Translations under genes and position numbers: made by a program
In this document: positions 1,904 to 8,632 of the stretch, in pieces
How the letters are laid out: each line of letters starts with the position of its first letter
How positions within the stretch are numbered: the first letter of the stretch is position 1
Assembly (NCBI RefSeq): GCF_039822205.1
Contig: NZ_JBAGBW010000020.1
Coordinates: forward strand, 1 to 32,892
Length of the DNA: 32,892 bases
Reading direction: 5' to 3'
Source of the DNA: Thermodesulfobium sp. 4217-1
GTDB taxonomy: Bacteria; Thermodesulfobiota; Thermodesulfobiia; Thermodesulfobiales; Thermodesulfobiaceae
Notes under the pieces: model-generated
The model's database searches: none
Told to the model about the DNA's origin: nothing
Seen by the model: only the letters and a program-made list of their open reading frames with translations

Positions 1904-3493
1904 TTATTTTTTCAGCCAATAAGGCGACAATATATCTTCAAATGCAGATGTGGCAGCTATAGCGCCCCTTGAGACTGCTACTACAATTTGTTTTTCCCCT
2001 CCTACTATATCGCCTGCTGCGTATACTCTGTGAACGTTGGTTCTCATTTTTCTATCGACCTTTATATAGCCCTCTTCGTCAATCTGAACGCCTAAGTCCT
2101 TTGCCAGTGAATTGTTTGGCATATAACCAACTGCTACAAACAGCCCATCAAGGGCAATGGTCTGCTCTTCACCTGTAATGTTATTTACAATCTTAATAAA
2201 CTCAATCGAATTTTTCCCTAAGATTTCTTTTACCTCGCTGTTCCATATAACCTCTATTCCAAGCTTGAAAAATGAATCTTGAAGATATTTTTCAGCCCTT
2301 AGAGTATCTCTTCTATGAATAAGCGTTACGTCAACTCCGACATTTTTAAGATATATTGCATCAGTTAAAGATGTATTTCCTCCTCCTACGAGAAATACCT
2401 TCTTTCCTTTATAAAAATATCCATCACAAAGCGCGCAGTAGCTTACTCCTTTGGCATAGAAAGAATCTTCACCCGGAACGTTTAACTTTTTCTTGGAGGC
2501 ACCGCTTGCTATCAATATTGCCTTTGATTTATATGAGCCATCGGATGTGATTACTTCAAAATAATCCTCTGCTTTATTGATCTTTTTAACTTCCTCACCA
2601 ATACTGATATTCACATAATTTAGTGCATGCTGCGTCAAGATATCTACCAAAGATTTGCCAGTGATGTCGATGAATCCAGGATAATTTTCCACCTGAGGAG
2701 TAGTCAGTACTTGACCTCCTACCATCTCACCCTCAAAAATACCCACAGAAAGTCCTGATCTTCTCGCGTATATTGCAGCAGAAAGCCCTGCAGGACCTGC
2801 CCCTACTATTGTTAAGTCAAATTCTTTTGCCTTGTCTTTATCGTTGTGAAGTAGTTCCTGAACGTCCTTGCCTATCAATGATAGTATAAATTCTTCATTT
2901 GACTGAAGGCCTACTGCTACCTGTTCATTATCTACATAAGTAACTGGCACAGATCTAATAGCCTTTTTTTGAGCAATATCTTTATTTTCAAATATTTCTA
3001 CTATTCTTGTCTTGATATTTCTGTTAACCGCACTTGCGCTAATGGCCATAATAGCTTGTTGAGGACAATATGGACAGGTAGGGCTCACATAAACCTCTAC
3101 AACTGTTTCTTTTTTCACGTCGCTAATTAACGAAATATCTTTGTCAGCCAGGAATTGTTTAGCTCCAGAAATAACTAAAATAGCGTTTACCAATGTGTGG
3201 GCCTCTTCCCCAATAGGCGTTCCCACGAATATTGCGTCAAGCTTTTCGTCGTCAAATATAACTATAGGGCACTTTATTTCTTCATCTATAAGATTTGAGG
3301 GCAAGTCACTTTTTGATATAAACTGAACTGAAATTTTCTCTGAAACTTCTGGCAAAACCTCAAAAATTTCTTTAGTATATTCATAAAATTGATCTTTTAC
3401 CTCTGGCAAAAAAACCTTTATATTTACATTGTCCTTCAATATCACGAAGCTCTCTTTTAAAGAATTTTTTACCTTTTCGTCAATAATTCCCAT
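1904..3493 (-). CDS. AhpF-like disulfide reductase (double thioredoxin fold fused to thioredoxin reductase)
   Basis: This 529-residue flavoprotein has the architecture of AhpF. Residues 1-120 form a first thioredoxin fold without a CxxC. Residues ~130-205 form a second with the redox pair C140-P-Y-C143, and residues ~224-529 are a thioredoxin-reductase module. The reductase part shows the FAD motif GAGPAGLSAAIYARR (~231), the redox pair C353-A-L-C356, the NAD(P) motif GGGNTSLTDA (~370), HRRDTLRAEK, and AAGDIVGG near the end. HRRxxxR usually signals NADPH. Electrons should pass from NAD(P)H through FAD and C353/C356 to C140/C143, then to a client peroxidase or protein disulfide. No ahpC lies nearby, so it may instead serve as a general protein-disulfide reductase. 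SD AAGGAG precedes the ATG. The small membrane-peptide gene at 3589 is transcribed divergently. Confidence 0.88.
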   Translation of the reverse strand: MGIIDEKVKNSLKESFVILKDNVNIKVFLPEVKDQFYEYTKEIFEVLPEVSEKISVQFISKSDLPSNLIDEEIKCPIVIFDDEKLDAIFVGTPIGEEAHTLVNAILVISGAKQFLADKDISLISDVKKETVVEVYVSPTCPYCPQQAIMAISASAVNRNIKTRIVEIFENKDIAQKKAIRSVPVTYVDNEQVAVGLQSNEEFILSLIGKDVQELLHNDKDKAKEFDLTIVGAGPAGLSAAIYARRSGLSVGIFEGEMVGGQVLTTPQVENYPGFIDITGKSLVDILTQHALNYVNISIGEEVKKINKAEDYFEVITSDGSYKSKAILIASGASKKKLNVPGEDSFYAKGVSYCALCDGYFYKGKKVFLVGGGNTSLTDAIYLKNVGVDVTLIHRRDTLRAEKYLQDSFFKLGIEVIWNSEVKEILGKNSIEFIKIVNNITGEEQTIALDGLFVAVGYMPNNSLAKDLGVQIDEEGYIKVDRKMRTNVHRVYAAGDIVGGEKQIVVAVSRGAIAATSAFEDILSPYWLKK

Positions 3494-3588
3494 ATTATCA
3501 CTCCTTTTTTATATTAATAAACATATTTCAATTTTATACTTAAAATGTTAAAATTTAAATAATAAAAATTATTATCAGGGAGGAATCT

Positions 3589-3753
3589 ATGCCAAAATCA
3601 ATTAGAGCTATTATGTTAATTACCGTAGCCATACTTTTGATAGTGGCTTTTTCATTTCCTTTTAGTCTTTACGTGAGAATTATTAGCACGTTGTTTTCAA
3701 TATTCTTTATATATGTAGCGCTTTTCAAACCAAACATTTTTGAAAAATTTTAA
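3589..3753 (+). CDS. Small membrane protein, 54 aa
   Basis: A short plus-strand ORF with a good SD (CAGGGAGG, 5-6 nt before ATG). The predicted peptide begins MPKSIRAIML and has two hydrophobic helices, residues ~7-24 and ~31-46. They are separated by a short turn with a basic residue (FSLYVR) and followed by the polar tail KPNIFEKF. I recognise no family. It is divergent from the AhpF-like gene, and its stop lies one base from the end of the radical SAM gene at 3755, so the two transcripts converge. The good SD, basic N-terminus and helix-turn-helix membrane layout argue for a real gene, though it is short enough to be chance. Confidence 0.6.
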   Translation: MPKSIRAIMLITVAILLIVAFSFPFSLYVRIISTLFSIFFIYVALFKPNIFEKF

Positions 3754-3754
3754 G

Positions 3755-4816
3755 TCAAAAGATGCACTGAGGATCTTCATCTAAATATCTATCCTCTTCT
3801 CTTGTCGATAGAGCGAAACATACCGCCCTGCAGCCTCTACATTTCATAAATTCAGAACATTCCTTGCATTTTCCGAAATAATTTTCTTGATCCCTGAGCT
3901 TATTTAATACCTCAGAATTAGCCCATATCTCCCTAAATGAATCCCTTCTTAGATTACCAAGAGGGATCTTTAACCTCCTGCAAGGAACAACCGTTGCATC
4001 GCTTAAAACAGTTATCCCTGCAAATCCTGCTGCGCAACCGCCAAAACCATATGTTGATTCACAATCGATGTATAAGGAAGCGATCGGATCGCCTGTGTTT
4101 ACTTTAAAATCAGAAATCTTGTTATTTTCCTTAACAAAATTATAAATCGATCTCAACTCTTCTTTGCTTAATATTAAATCCTTGCTATCTTGCGAGTGCC
4201 CAGTTGGGACCAGCCTTGAGAAGACCAGTCCACTAACTTGCAGACTTTTGGCAACTTGAAATAGATCCTGAAAAGATTCATAGTTAATTTTAGAAATTGT
4301 AGTGTTCAAAGTTACGTCAATTTCATTTTCTATAAGGTTATTTATGCCGATAACAGCTTTTTCAAATGAACCTTGACCCCTAATATAGTCATGAATTTTT
4401 TCAGGACCATCCAGACTGACCTGTACCGCAGATACGTGATAATCCTTAAGCTTTCTTGCGACATCTCTGTCTATCAGAGTAGCATTGGTAAGTATATAGT
4501 ACTCTATGTGTTCTTTAGAAAAAAAATCTAAAATCTCTTCCCAATCTCTTCTTACAAAAACCTCTCCCCCTAATAAATTTATATTGGGCAGAAAAGTGAT
4601 TTGCGACTTCTCTGCCCAATCATGAACTACTTCAAATATTTCTTCCGTGATGTCTTCAATTTCTTTCAGACTCATCTCATCGGATATTTCATTTTCTTGA
4701 TAACAGTGCCTGCAGTTCAAATTGCACCTTTCAGTGATGTGTATTTGAACTGTAAATGGAACACTCATATTAGCTGCCAAACTGACAGCTGCACGATCTC
4801 CTATCAGCTCTTTCAC
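3755..4816 (-). CDS. Radical SAM/SPASM-domain protein (second of the pair)
   Basis: A 353-residue radical SAM enzyme. The [4Fe-4S]-SAM motif is C31-x3-C35-x2-C38 (ITERCNLNCRHCYQEN), with LLGGEVF as the GGE SAM-binding motif and QVSLDGPEKIHD following. The C-terminal third is SPASM-like, with cysteines in GGCAAGF, VPCRR, GKCKEC, KCRGC, AVC and finally DPQC, enough for auxiliary Fe-S clusters. SPASM enzymes commonly modify peptides, forming thioether or C-C bonds, or mature quinone or heme cofactors. The start is GTG at 4816, whose GTGA overlaps the stop of the 34 aa peptide gene upstream, implying translational coupling. An internal ATG at residue 17 (MSVPFTVQ) is an alternative. It is a clear paralogue of the gene at 4942-5976, sharing CxHCYQEN, SRLVPxG, AGFxxITVLSD, PCRR and DPQC. 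The substrate is unknown. Confidence 0.88.
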   Translation of the reverse strand: MKELIGDRAAVSLAANMSVPFTVQIHITERCNLNCRHCYQENEISDEMSLKEIEDITEEIFEVVHDWAEKSQITFLPNINLLGGEVFVRRDWEEILDFFSKEHIEYYILTNATLIDRDVARKLKDYHVSAVQVSLDGPEKIHDYIRGQGSFEKAVIGINNLIENEIDVTLNTTISKINYESFQDLFQVAKSLQVSGLVFSRLVPTGHSQDSKDLILSKEELRSIYNFVKENNKISDFKVNTGDPIASLYIDCESTYGFGGCAAGFAGITVLSDATVVPCRRLKIPLGNLRRDSFREIWANSEVLNKLRDQENYFGKCKECSEFMKCRGCRAVCFALSTREEDRYLDEDPQCIF

Positions 4817-4917
4817 TTGCGGCAGACTTTTCCAGAACCTTTCTTAAGATTATCCTTAATCTTATTCCAGAAGTCTGTCTCTTTTTCAAGAGTCTTCTTA
4901 TCAAACTCTTTCTTCAT
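4813..4917 (-). CDS. 34 aa peptide between two radical SAM genes, candidate modified-peptide precursor
   Basis: A very short ORF with a textbook SD (AAAGGAGGTGA, spacer 4-5 nt) before ATG at 4917. The peptide starts MKKEFDKKTLEKETDFW, continues as a charged amphipathic segment (NKIKDNLKKG) and ends GSGKVCRK with a single Cys four residues from the C-terminus. Its TGA stop overlaps the GTG start of the downstream radical SAM gene. A helical charged leader, then a Gly-Ser-Gly turn and a short Cys-containing tail, directly beside SPASM enzymes, would suit a ribosomally made, post-translationally modified peptide. No PqqD-like recognition domain, protease or exporter is seen nearby. It could also be only a coupling leader for translation of the downstream gene. 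The function is inference; the translation signals are seen directly. Confidence 0.62.
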   Translation of the reverse strand: MKKEFDKKTLEKETDFWNKIKDNLKKGSGKVCRK

Positions 4918-4941
4918 TTTTATCACCTCCTTTGTTATCCA

Positions 4942-5976
4942 TTATTTTATCAAAGACTCAGCGAAAAAGCACTGAGGGTCTTTGTCCAGCCAGCCCTGTT
5001 TATCTTTTGACAAAGAATACGCTATCGCCCTGCAACCCCTGCATATATTCCAATACAGGCAGCTGTTGCAGCCATTTTTATAGCTGTCCTTTTCCCTTAG
5101 AGATAGCAATACTTCATTATCAGACCAGATTTCTCTTAGATCATCTTTCAGTATATTTCCTAAAGAAATAGGCATCCTTCTACAGGGTACTATCTCGCCA
5201 TCAGATAGAACTGTTATGCTTGAGAATCCAGCCGAACAGCCGCCTACAGTATCTATCTTATCTTCGAACTCGTCATCCAGCACGCAAACTCCAAGGGGAT
5301 CCTCTACCAACAATTCAAATGATGTTATATTTTTTGATTTCAATGTCAAATAGAATTCTTTCAGCTCTGAACTTGAAAGCATATCGTCGTGCAGCTTTGA
5401 GCCGCTGCCAATAGGGACCAATCTTGAAAACCCCAGTCCATCCACCTTCCACTCATTTGAGATATCTATCAAGTCATCTAAATTTTTATGATTTAGCTTT
5501 GATATGGTAGTCTTCAAAACTACCTTAAAGTTCTCTTCCTTCAGAAGTTTTACTGATTCTTTAACTTTCGCAAAAGTGCCCTCTCCTCTAATACTATCAT
5601 GGGTATCCTTGCATCCTTCCAAGCTTATCTGAAATCCATCAAATCTAAATTTTTTTAAATTAGAAATCATATCTTTATCAATGAGAGTACCATTTGTAAG
5701 AACGTATGGCTCAATATCAATCTCATTTAAAAATTTTACAATATCAAAAAAGTCCTCTCTTAAAAAGGGCTCGCCACCAGTTAGCTTTATTAGAAGGGGG
5801 ATCTCAATATCATATTTAGCCTCCCATTCTCTGATTAAATCTTTACTGTATGTGAAGAATCTTTTCCAATCGTCGAACTTTAGTTCACTTATTTGATTTT
5901 CTTGATAACAGTGCTTACACCTGAGGTTACACCTCTCTGTAAGATGAGCCTGAATAAAAAAGTCAAACTTTAACAT
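4942..5976 (-). CDS. Radical SAM/SPASM-domain protein (first of the pair)
   Basis: A 344-residue paralogue of the protein encoded at 3755. The cluster motif is C16-x3-C20-x2-C23 (LTERCNLRCKHCYQEN), followed by KLTGGEPFLREDF (GGE motif) and FQISLEGCKDTHD. The C-terminal SPASM-like region has GGCSAGFSSITVLSDG, VPCRRMPISLGN, NGCNSC, NICRGCRA and DPQCFF. The N-terminus lacks the ~15-residue extension of its partner. The ATG at 5976 overlaps the end of korB by 7 nt, so it is translated from the same message. Only a weak SD is visible inside korB. The pairing of two related SPASM enzymes around a 34 aa ORF suggests either two successive modifications of one substrate or a heterodimer. Heme or cofactor maturation is the main alternative. 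Confidence 0.87.
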   Translation of the reverse strand: MLKFDFFIQAHLTERCNLRCKHCYQENQISELKFDDWKRFFTYSKDLIREWEAKYDIEIPLLIKLTGGEPFLREDFFDIVKFLNEIDIEPYVLTNGTLIDKDMISNLKKFRFDGFQISLEGCKDTHDSIRGEGTFAKVKESVKLLKEENFKVVLKTTISKLNHKNLDDLIDISNEWKVDGLGFSRLVPIGSGSKLHDDMLSSSELKEFYLTLKSKNITSFELLVEDPLGVCVLDDEFEDKIDTVGGCSAGFSSITVLSDGEIVPCRRMPISLGNILKDDLREIWSDNEVLLSLREKDSYKNGCNSCLYWNICRGCRAIAYSLSKDKQGWLDKDPQCFFAESLIK

Positions 5977-6812
5977 ATCAGAGACTTTATGTCAGGAAAA
6001 TTTTGCATTGAAACAAGTGTATTATCTCTTATTACGGGCATATTTTTTTCAAAAGTTGGCCTTGAATTAGAATAAAATACCCCAAGTGGAATTTTGTCTC
6101 CAAATTCTTGAGATTTTTCAAATGCCTTGAGTTTGTCATTAAGCTCGTAATCAGCACTGAATTCATAAATTCTGTTTTTATACCAGTCAAAGCTATTTAC
6201 TTTATTGAAGCTTACGCATATTTGAAGTATATCCACAAGGGCGAATCCTTCGTGCATTATAGCCATCTTCATAATCTCTTTAAGGTGATCCAGTCTGCCA
6301 GAGAAGCTCCTTGCTACAAATGAGCAATCCATCGCAATAGCCAATGCCAGAGGATTCAGAGGTTCAGAAAGTGCTCCAAAAGGTTGGGCCTTTGTATGTC
6401 TGCCAAATTCTGTGGTGGGAGACGCCTGCCCCTTGGTGAGGCCATATACTTCGTTGTTGTGGACGAAAAGCGTTATATTTGGATTCCTTCTGAATGCGTG
6501 CAAGAGATGATTTCCGCCTTCTCCATAGGTATCCCCGTCTCCTCCAAAAACTATTACCTTTTGTTTGTGATTGGCCACGCTAACGCCAGTAGCTACTGGC
6601 AGAGATCTTCCGTGTAGACCGTTGAAACCATTGCATTTTAGATAATGTGGCATTTTGCTCGACTGACCTATTCCTGAAACCAACGTAATTTCGTGAGGAT
6701 CAAGCTTTAGCTCGAAAAGGGCTTTTTTAAAGGCGTCTAAAATTCCAAAATTTCCGCACCCTGGACACCAGGCAGGGCTTATACCGTTGTCAAAATCCTT
6801 ATATGATTGCAT
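5970..6812 (-). CDS. korB: 2-oxoacid:ferredoxin oxidoreductase, beta subunit (TPP-binding)
   Basis: A 280-residue beta subunit of the KorB/PorB type. It carries the CPGCG cluster and TPP region (W-C16-P-G-C19-G), the SGIGQSS motif, HGRSLPVATG, the TPP-Mg motif GGDGDTYGEGG with the downstream NNEVYGLTKGQASPT, and TEFG after it. With KorA it oxidatively decarboxylates a 2-oxoacid to acyl-CoA and reduces ferredoxin, or runs in reverse in autotrophs. Whether the substrate is 2-oxoglutarate, pyruvate or another 2-oxoacid cannot be told from the motifs alone. The start at 6812 is chosen because GGAGGG lies 5 nt upstream. An open frame extends to 6857 but has no SD there. It overlaps the end of korA by 14 nt. 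No dedicated ferredoxin (delta) subunit is present in the run. Confidence 0.9.
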   Translation of the reverse strand: MQSYKDFDNGISPAWCPGCGNFGILDAFKKALFELKLDPHEITLVSGIGQSSKMPHYLKCNGFNGLHGRSLPVATGVSVANHKQKVIVFGGDGDTYGEGGNHLLHAFRRNPNITLFVHNNEVYGLTKGQASPTTEFGRHTKAQPFGALSEPLNPLALAIAMDCSFVARSFSGRLDHLKEIMKMAIMHEGFALVDILQICVSFNKVNSFDWYKNRIYEFSADYELNDKLKAFEKSQEFGDKIPLGVFYSNSRPTFEKNMPVIRDNTLVSMQNFPDIKSLIC

Positions 6813-8511
6813 ATATACCCTCCAAAACCTCGTCGTAATTAAAAGGCCTACCGTCAAATTTTCTTATGTTATTAGAAAATTTTAATCTATATTCAGATTC
6901 GATCAGTTTTTGAAACTGTCCAGAGGCGTTATTCTCGATGCATATGGTTATGTAAGCGTTGAGCATCTTATTTAGAGCTTCTTCAGAGTTTTCTCTTAGC
7001 GGGAGTGGGAAGATCTCGCTGTAGTGTATGGCGCAGATTGACAATTTTTTGTTGTTCGCAATTTCTTTAAGTATTCCAAGATTTGACCCAAATCCAACCA
7101 ATACTATCTTAGAATTTTTATTGCCATAGATTCTTGGAGGGGACATCTCTTTTCGAATGTTTTCAATCTTCCAAAAGTATCTCCTCTCCAGCTGTTTCTT
7201 TCTTACTTCGCCATCTTCAGTTATGTGACCCTCTTCGTCGTGCTCATCGCTATCTGTAAATACCAACTGTTTGCTGTCTCCTGGAACAGCTAATGGGCTA
7301 AGTGGATTCTCCTTATTAAGATCTAAAAATTTATGTCTTTTGTAATCCTGATAGCTCTCAAATTCTGCCGATCTGAGCCTATAGTCTTGATTTTTCAGAT
7401 CAATTTTTAGATCTTTTTCATAAGAGTACAAAGAATCTACCAGATGCTGATCCGTCAAAACTATAGCGGGTATCTGATATTTTTCAGCTAAATCAAATGC
7501 CTTGTTTGTAAGAAGAGCGCACTCGAGCGGATCTCCAGGCGCAAAGACGACTTTCGGAAAGTCTCCATGCCCCGCATGTATTGCATACAGCAATTCTCCC
7601 TGTTCTGTTCTGGTTGGAAAACCTGTTGCAGGACCGGGGCGCTGGGAAAGAAGCATCACTATCGGTGTTTCTGTCATCCCAGAGAGAGATAGGGCTTCGT
7701 TCATAAGGGCAAAGCCTCCTCCAGATGTGCCTGTCATTGCCCGTACACCCGCAAAAGACGCGCCAAGAGTCATGTTTATAGCGCTCAATTCATCTTCAGC
7801 CTGTTCAACTACAATGTTATACTTTTCAGCATTTGCCCCCACATACTGAAATACCCCTGTAGAGGGTGTCATAGGATAAGCTGAATAAAATTTGCAGCCT
7901 GAACCTATAGCTCCTATGCCTACTCCTTTTACCCCATCCAATAAAATCTTGCTATCGCTGTTAGAAGGCGCCAAACCTATTTTCTTTTTTATATCATAAG
8001 TATATCCAATATTTATTGCCTTCATATTTTGAGCTAATATCTCTTCTGACTTATCAGAGAAAATATCTTGAATAACTTTATAGACATATTTCTTATCAAT
8101 CGAAAATATATTTGATACCAGCGCAAATGATAGAACATTTTCAAATATATTTTTAAGTCCTGCATCCTTTAGCATCCCCCTGAAGGGGCAATTTATAAAT
8201 CTTTCATCTGATTCAGATTGCTTTAGAGAATCAGCGTCATAAATTACAATGCCGCCCCTCTGCAGCAAATCTTTATACTCTAAGCCTCTTTTGTCGAATG
8301 TAAGGATTAAGTCTAAGAATTTTTTAGGCGCAAAAACTTCATCTGTGCCAAAAGTTATCTGATAAAAGTTGTGACCCCCTCTTATCCTTGATTCATAATC
8401 CTGAAAGGAGAAGACGTTATAGCCCAAAGAGCTAAAAAGTCTTGAAAAACCCTCTCCTGTAGTTTGAATGCCCTGACCTGCTTCACCGCATATTCTTATA
8501 GTATAATTCAC
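6799..8511 (-). CDS. korA: 2-oxoacid:ferredoxin oxidoreductase, fused gamma-alpha subunit
   Basis: A fused gamma-alpha subunit of ~570 residues. Residues 1-180 are the gamma domain, beginning YTIRICGEAGQGIQTTGEGF, with the FQDYESRIRGG loop. Residues ~190 onward are the alpha domain (GVGIGAIGSGCKFYSAYPMTPST), with EQAEDELSAINMTLGAS and TGTSGGGFALMNEAL as the conserved core. MLLSQRPGPATGFPTRTEQGEL and the C-terminal pyrimidine-binding-like part follow. This order matches the KorA family, and the partner beta subunit is encoded next. GTG at 8511 is preferred over the TTG two codons upstream because GGAGG sits 6 nt before GTG and directly abuts the TTG. It is the first gene of the run that ends with the radical SAM genes, so the whole set is probably co-transcribed. 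Confidence 0.9.
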   Translation of the reverse strand: MNYTIRICGEAGQGIQTTGEGFSRLFSSLGYNVFSFQDYESRIRGGHNFYQITFGTDEVFAPKKFLDLILTFDKRGLEYKDLLQRGGIVIYDADSLKQSESDERFINCPFRGMLKDAGLKNIFENVLSFALVSNIFSIDKKYVYKVIQDIFSDKSEEILAQNMKAINIGYTYDIKKKIGLAPSNSDSKILLDGVKGVGIGAIGSGCKFYSAYPMTPSTGVFQYVGANAEKYNIVVEQAEDELSAINMTLGASFAGVRAMTGTSGGGFALMNEALSLSGMTETPIVMLLSQRPGPATGFPTRTEQGELLYAIHAGHGDFPKVVFAPGDPLECALLTNKAFDLAEKYQIPAIVLTDQHLVDSLYSYEKDLKIDLKNQDYRLRSAEFESYQDYKRHKFLDLNKENPLSPLAVPGDSKQLVFTDSDEHDEEGHITEDGEVRKKQLERRYFWKIENIRKEMSPPRIYGNKNSKIVLVGFGSNLGILKEIANNKKLSICAIHYSEIFPLPLRENSEEALNKMLNAYITICIENNASGQFQKLIESEYRLKFSNNIRKFDGRPFNYDEVLEGIYAII

Positions 8512-8632
8512 ACACAACCTCCCTATAAGTTATATATAAATGATAGTCTTTTCCAACCAAATAATCAAGTAAATTTCTAATAAATTATTTTATTTAGCAA
8601 AAAAACCTTATAGTAAGTTTAAAAATTTAAGC

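Follow-up and report, generated by a model that had tools for sequence, protein, structure and literature searches.

A probable selenium RiPP-type precursor gene between two radical SAM/SPASM enzyme genes in Thermodesulfobium

Known selenium RiPPs and the layout of the locus

To our knowledge, SbtM is the sole characterised SPASM enzyme known to have a selenocysteine (Sec) precursor. The targets of the ACGX radical SAM system are, going by its name, peptides with Cys repeats (ACGX). The closest known system to the locus described here is the selenobacteriocin pair SbtA/SbtM (TIGR04081/TIGR04082), which belongs to the thio(seleno)oxazole RiPPs, and among the 119 families of prokaryotic selenoproteins inventoried in 2026 there is one selenium RiPP, the selenobacteriocin TIGR04081. 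According to PMC11002830, SbtM takes off four hydrogens to form a thiooxazole and acts on a Sec precursor that is read through a TGA codon.

The window, which is the whole stretch of 32,892 nucleotides from Thermodesulfobium sp. 4217-1 that was analysed, carries an apparent operon on its minus strand. The operon is opened by a korA-like 2-oxoacid:acceptor oxidoreductase alpha gene (6799..8517; TIGR03710 above cut-off), followed by a korB-like 2-oxoacid:ferredoxin oxidoreductase beta gene (5970..6857; TIGR02177 above cut-off) that overlaps the start of the next gene, rSAM2 (4942..5976), by 7 nt; the peptide precursor gene (4804..4917, 38 codons with TGA as Sec) and rSAM1 (3755..4816) come last. 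Both rSAM2, upstream of the peptide gene, and rSAM1, downstream of it, contain the Pfam domains PF04055 and PF13186, and their 43% identity bears out a first-pass annotation of this DNA, which had called them paralogous radical SAM/SPASM enzymes and had pointed to the motifs CxHCYQEN, ITVLSD, PCRR and DPQC that are indeed common to both. That annotation was equally right in describing an operon without a recognition domain, protease or exporter, and in placing a peptide ORF with a strong Shine-Dalgarno sequence at 4813-4917; the ORF lies on the minus strand and has 34 codons plus the stop (MKKEFDKKTLEKETDFWNKIKDNLKKGSGKVCRK + TGA), the stretch upstream of it is AAAGGAGGTGATAAAAATG, and AAAGGAGGTGATAAAA precedes its start. 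The overlap of this TGA with the GTG of rSAM1 at 4816, also recorded at that stage, mostly follows from the UGA being a probable Sec codon. A short membrane-peptide ORF at 3588-3755 on the plus strand (MPKSIRAIMLITVAILLIVAFSFPFSLYVRIISTLFSIFFIYVALFKPNIFEKF) is convergent with rSAM1, and its own convergent neighbour is an AhpF-like fusion of glutaredoxin-type and thioredoxin-reductase-type domains (1904-3493, minus strand).

The peptide gene was found between both enzyme genes in all four species of the genus compared. Against the most distant of these its omega is ~0.01, and the two enzymes have values of 0.08 and 0.12. Identity to the three other species is 100, 100 and 94% for the peptide and 94, 94 and 84% for rSAM2. 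Given this cross-species identity, and the 12 synonymous versus 2 nonsynonymous changes that separate the most distant species pair, conservation of the ORF as a gene is beyond chance. Used as a query beyond the genus, the 34-residue form returned only noise, and relatives outside the genus surfaced only once TGA was read as Sec.

Related enzymes and peptides in other genomes

Neither rSAM1 nor rSAM2 reached a cut-off in the NCBIfam search, the nearest models being AhbD, ACGX, GeoRSP and SbtM. Every SPASM Cys of rSAM2 is conserved, and the solved folds nearest to its AlphaFold model (mean pLDDT 82.5) are SuiB, SkfB, PqqE and anSME, so that the closest structural matches of the predicted fold are mostly peptide maturases. 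The heme enzymes AhbD and NirJ belong to the SPASM superfamily too, with HMM scores similar to those of the window enzymes; membership of AhbC, AhbD or NirJ was rejected at no more than 174.6 bits against cut-offs of 500-650, as was a heme/tetrapyrrole identity, since the AhbD/NirJ-like genes of the same genome (contig C7) lie outside the rSAM1/rSAM2 clade. A PqqD-type recognition element (RRE) is absent from both the operon and the enzymes. The sole PqqD-like domain of the genome (G000:C13:48561-48731; L045:1339-1692) sits beside an OPT-family transporter, far from the rSAM pair, and could be either a recognition partner of the pair or unrelated to it.

Peptide genes beside homologous rSAM genes in other genomes fall into several groups. 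In the operons of family f12 (L076, L077 and L136-L152), the rSAM gene is followed by a PqqD gene and then by one to three peptides of 39 residues with AEEFY leaders. Most of these peptides end SCYSUKECK with an in-frame TGA, a CYSUKSCK form occurring as well, and paralogs ending CYSCKSCK or CYSCKGCK have a Cys codon where the others have UGA; Sec and Cys forms can be found within one genome (three copies in L076). These operons apparently constitute a selenopeptide family with no existing name, and no model in NCBIfam or Pfam was matched by the f12 peptides or by the window peptide. Cys-only relatives include the peptide ending VCRQCSGCHGCR that follows an rSAM gene (38% identity to rSAM2) and a PqqD protein gene in genome G004, and a further peptide, ICRQCSSCHACR. 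A Cys-only subfamily ending [VI]CRQCSxCHxCR (L153:1699-1782, reverse-strand coordinates, and L039:4344-4484) adjoins rSAM genes in two genomes from different families. Elsewhere, in MAGs labelled Clostridium and Tenericutes (L033:4442-7764 and L034:2350-5978), the neighbours of related rSAM genes encode LemA and DUF2207-like membrane proteins, possible candidates for a protein substrate, and on a Labilibaculum-labelled contig (L032:42-1429) a 104-residue protein ending CSSCSSCSSCGGCS, a Cys-repeat target resembling ACGX, precedes the related rSAM.

The nearest outside rSAM among the matches listed comes from an unrelated, GC-rich genome (G288), and in the rSAM tree this one outside enzyme forms a single clade with rSAM1 and rSAM2 (99/97). 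An ORF directly upstream of its gene encodes MKKSLTPAARELEAAHWTALKKALTEKTVKVCRKUSSUKS-TGA and is preceded by GGAAGGAGGTGA; it aligns with the window peptide without gaps (16 of 38 residues identical, pairwise E 5e-10), both TGAs being kept. The third TGA of this ORF probably acts as the stop, because the loop of the hairpin is only 7 nt off. About 100 nt separate the peptide from the rSAM start in G288, and the two genes (L180:9907-11176) are preceded by a dihydrolipoamide dehydrogenase-like gene, which loosely recalls the upstream korAB genes of the window. Within the collection, the rSAM is present in one of the two genomes of this phylum. No Sec genes were found in the 0.48 Mb of the G288 draft genome that was read (12%), and the pattern KVCRK-UGA-x-S-UGA was absent from the viral contigs searched. 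The peptide/rSAM family may extend beyond the matches listed.

Selenocysteine reading of the UGA codons

The Sec reading was prompted by these related peptides. In the window, the frame stays meaningful past the TGA (GTC TGC CGC AAG TGA AAG AGC TGA TAG), and translation with TGA as U gives MKKEFDKKTLEKETDFWNKIKDNLKKGSGKVCRKUKSU, 38 residues followed by a UAG stop (4801-4803, minus strand), with a C-terminal CxxUxxU tail formed by C32, U35 and U38. The first UGA (Sec35; 4813..4815, minus strand) aligns with UGA or Cys in the f12 peptides, with UGA in G288 and with Cys in L039 and L153; the second (Sec38; 4804..4806, minus strand) is matched by the third Cys in the peptides of f12, L039 and L153 and, in G288, by the second UGA. 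An in-frame UGA opposite a Cys of the homologs, as in bacterial selenoproteins, is therefore present. The 18 nt around the UGAs (AAG TGA AAG AGC TGA TAG) show zero differences across the four species of the genus, while synonymous sites upstream have diverged. The Sec decoding of the peptide is strongly supported: the first UGA is very probably decoded as Sec, and the second only slightly less so.

The genome encodes the full set of genes for Sec insertion, all above curated cut-offs: tRNA-Sec (selC) at 76 bits (cut-off 47), SelB at 349 (cut-off 242), SelA at 526 (cut-off 268) and SelD at 325 (cut-off 125). Since this set is complete, the organism very probably decodes UGA as Sec; its own selD and fdhA (formate dehydrogenase) genes have an in-frame TGA, and selA, selB, selC and selD are also found in the three other species of the genus.

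A candidate SECIS element lies downstream of the UGAs. According to PMC13188914, the bSECIS model allows a loop of 3-9 nt whose first two positions include a G, a stem of 4-16 bp, a distance of 16-37 nt from the UGA and an MFE <= -7.5 kcal/mol. The hairpin in the window (AGCUGUC-AGUUU-GGCAGCU, 7 bp; 4772..4790, minus strand) falls within these limits for both UGAs, at 20 nt from the second and at 29 nt from the first (within the model, short of optimal), and with -7.6 to -10.7 kcal/mol across the four species. Its seven pairs are kept in all four, with one compensatory change (C-G to U-A) and one one-sided change (U-G/U-A), a covariation that is thin, as 134 of 500 shuffles of these four close sequences were equally good. 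Among the 76 ORFs of the window that end in TGA and have at least 30 codons, the peptide ORF is the only one with such a hairpin behind it, and shuffling of the stretch produced the hairpin in 1 of 20000 shuffles. The hairpin loop of fdhA in the same genome, AGUUUA (AGUUUG in G001), starts with AGUUU as does that of the window hairpin, and the selD loop is AGGUG; in G288, the hairpin CGUCGCC-GGUC-GGCGACG lies 16 and 25 nt from the two UGAs. An AG[GU]U hairpin follows 13 of 13 Sec forms in f12 (12 with >=5 bp) and one of the five Cys forms (with the threshold set at 5 bp, Fisher's test gives p 0.008, indicative only as the rows are related), and some of these minimal hairpins, at -5.0 to -6.1 kcal/mol, fail the -7.5 kcal/mol limit. 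An Rfam search with the window hairpin gave zero matches; bacterial SECIS elements are poorly covered in Rfam.

The first ~17 codons of rSAM1 overlie both the Sec codons and the hairpin. A comparison of G000 with G001 shows 7 nonsynonymous and 0 synonymous changes in these codons, whereas omega for the whole rSAM1 gene is 0.12. Because this 5' end is unconserved as protein and the gene as a whole is constrained, it appears to have the pattern expected of an RNA element, the N-terminal tail of rSAM1 being unimportant or the real start lying downstream.

Interpretation and comparison with known systems

The first-pass annotation had suggested that the peptide could be the precursor of a modified peptide, with the two related SPASM enzymes as its maturases. 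The precursor idea is supported by the conserved ORF, by related rSAMs that adjoin PqqD and CxxCxxC peptides and by a predicted fold nearest to RiPP maturases; its single-Cys GSGKVCRK tail is not, the peptide having been ended too early at a probable Sec codon (UGA/Cys exchange, SECIS, Sec machinery), and is likely to be a CxxUxxU core. The expectation that the class would be unusual was sound, though on account of Sec, which was invisible to that reader. An ordinary 34-residue RiPP precursor with one core Cys, as in that earlier form, would agree with UGA as the default stop and with the UGA/GTG overlap, a common coupling arrangement, but it is very unlikely in view of the exchange of UGA and Cys at the matching position of related peptides, the two UGAs and hairpin of the G288 homolog, the invariant 18 nt amid diverged upstream synonymous sites in the four species and the lack of protein conservation in the 17 codons at the start of rSAM1 that overlap it. 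The GTGA overlap would also suit a short ORF that serves rSAM1 as a translational coupler or leader and whose peptide has no function; since purifying selection acts strongly on its amino acids and uncoupled homologs exist (e.g., G288, with its ~100 nt spacing), this is hardly credible.

It is also improbable that the product is an unmodified selenopeptide, with a thiol/selenol redox or metal-binding role, while the rSAM enzymes perform other chemistry such as that of cofactors or tetrapyrroles. AhbD is among the best NCBIfam matches of the enzymes and CxxU is a frequent redox motif of selenoproteins, but the cut-offs of the heme families are all widely missed, the AhbD/NirJ-like genes on C7 fall outside the clade, the two enzymes flank the peptide in each of the four species compared, and in other genomes related rSAMs occur together with PqqD and peptides of a similar kind.

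The locus is thus best read as a selenium RiPP-type precursor with a Cys/Sec tail that is probably processed by two SbtM-like SPASM enzymes, a reading in which the conserved peptide, the Sec-type tail, the SECIS and the complete Sec machinery are well supported. Ribosomes would initiate at 4917, read the UGAs at 4815-4813 and 4806-4804 as Sec with the aid of a single hairpin (4790-4772) placed over the 5' end of the rSAM1 gene, and terminate at the UAG at 4803-4801, yielding a 38-residue peptide in which a charged amphipathic leader would be followed by a C-x-x-U-x-x-U core at the C-terminus. Given a correct Sec reading, modification of the peptide by the flanking enzymes is quite likely; presumably both use it, and by analogy with known maturases they would most likely act on the chalcogen residues C32, U35 and U38. 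The PapB work, as cited in PMC10470005, indicates that SPASM auxiliary clusters can bind a substrate Sec directly. The chemistry may be an oxazole-type oxidation of Cys/Sec to thio- or selenooxazole, in analogy to SbtM, or the formation of thioether or selenoether crosslinks, in analogy to ranthi- and sactipeptide synthases. The product would remain intracellular and serve as a redox- or metal-active cofactor, since the operon has no exporter or protease and opens with a 2-oxoacid:ferredoxin oxidoreductase; the more specific proposal of a peptide-derived Se/S redox or metal cofactor, made by the two SPASM enzymes and working with that oxidoreductase, is rather unlikely. Among the points that speak against the selenium RiPP reading are that a single hairpin has to serve two UGAs 9 nt apart, at a distance from the first that is short of optimal, that the covariation of its pairs is thin, that one Cys-type f12 peptide retains the hairpin, and that the operon lacks an RRE and a protease.

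If the selenium RiPP reading is true, the window locus, together with its relatives in f12 and G288, would represent a second kind of selenium RiPP, unrelated in sequence to SbtA, with two Sec within 38 residues and two maturases in the window. Such genes escape annotation, as UGA truncates them and the SECIS is hidden within the next annotated gene. The locus offers a clear test of one SECIS serving two UGAs, and the related peptides a natural set of Sec/Cys pairs ready for the study of how SPASM enzymes handle selenium.

Compared with the window locus, the f12 operons share homologous enzymes, a C-terminal C-x-x-U/C-x-x-C core and an AG[GU]U hairpin downstream, and differ in having one rSAM with PqqD, an AEEFY leader, one Sec rather than two and a normal stop one residue later. 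The ACGX rSAM family (TIGR04340) is the best or near-best match of the window enzymes, yet these score 168.2 and 152.3 bits against a cut-off of 400, and the window peptide lacks ACGX repeats and has Sec replacing Cys. As described in PMC11002830 and PMC13188914, SbtA/SbtM resembles the window locus in combining an rSAM/SPASM enzyme, a precursor with an in-frame UGA as Sec and a SECIS directly downstream. The window peptide is nevertheless unrelated to SbtA, ending in CxxUxxU where SbtA has SGUG, and the SbtA model TIGR04081 gave nothing at E<=10 when searched against it with Sec given as Cys. The two window enzymes reach 119.3 and 160.3 bits against the SbtM cut-off of 350 (TIGR04082) and match profile positions 199-516 only, and their operon is without an RRE. 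The system in the window would work like SbtA/SbtM and is not a member of it.
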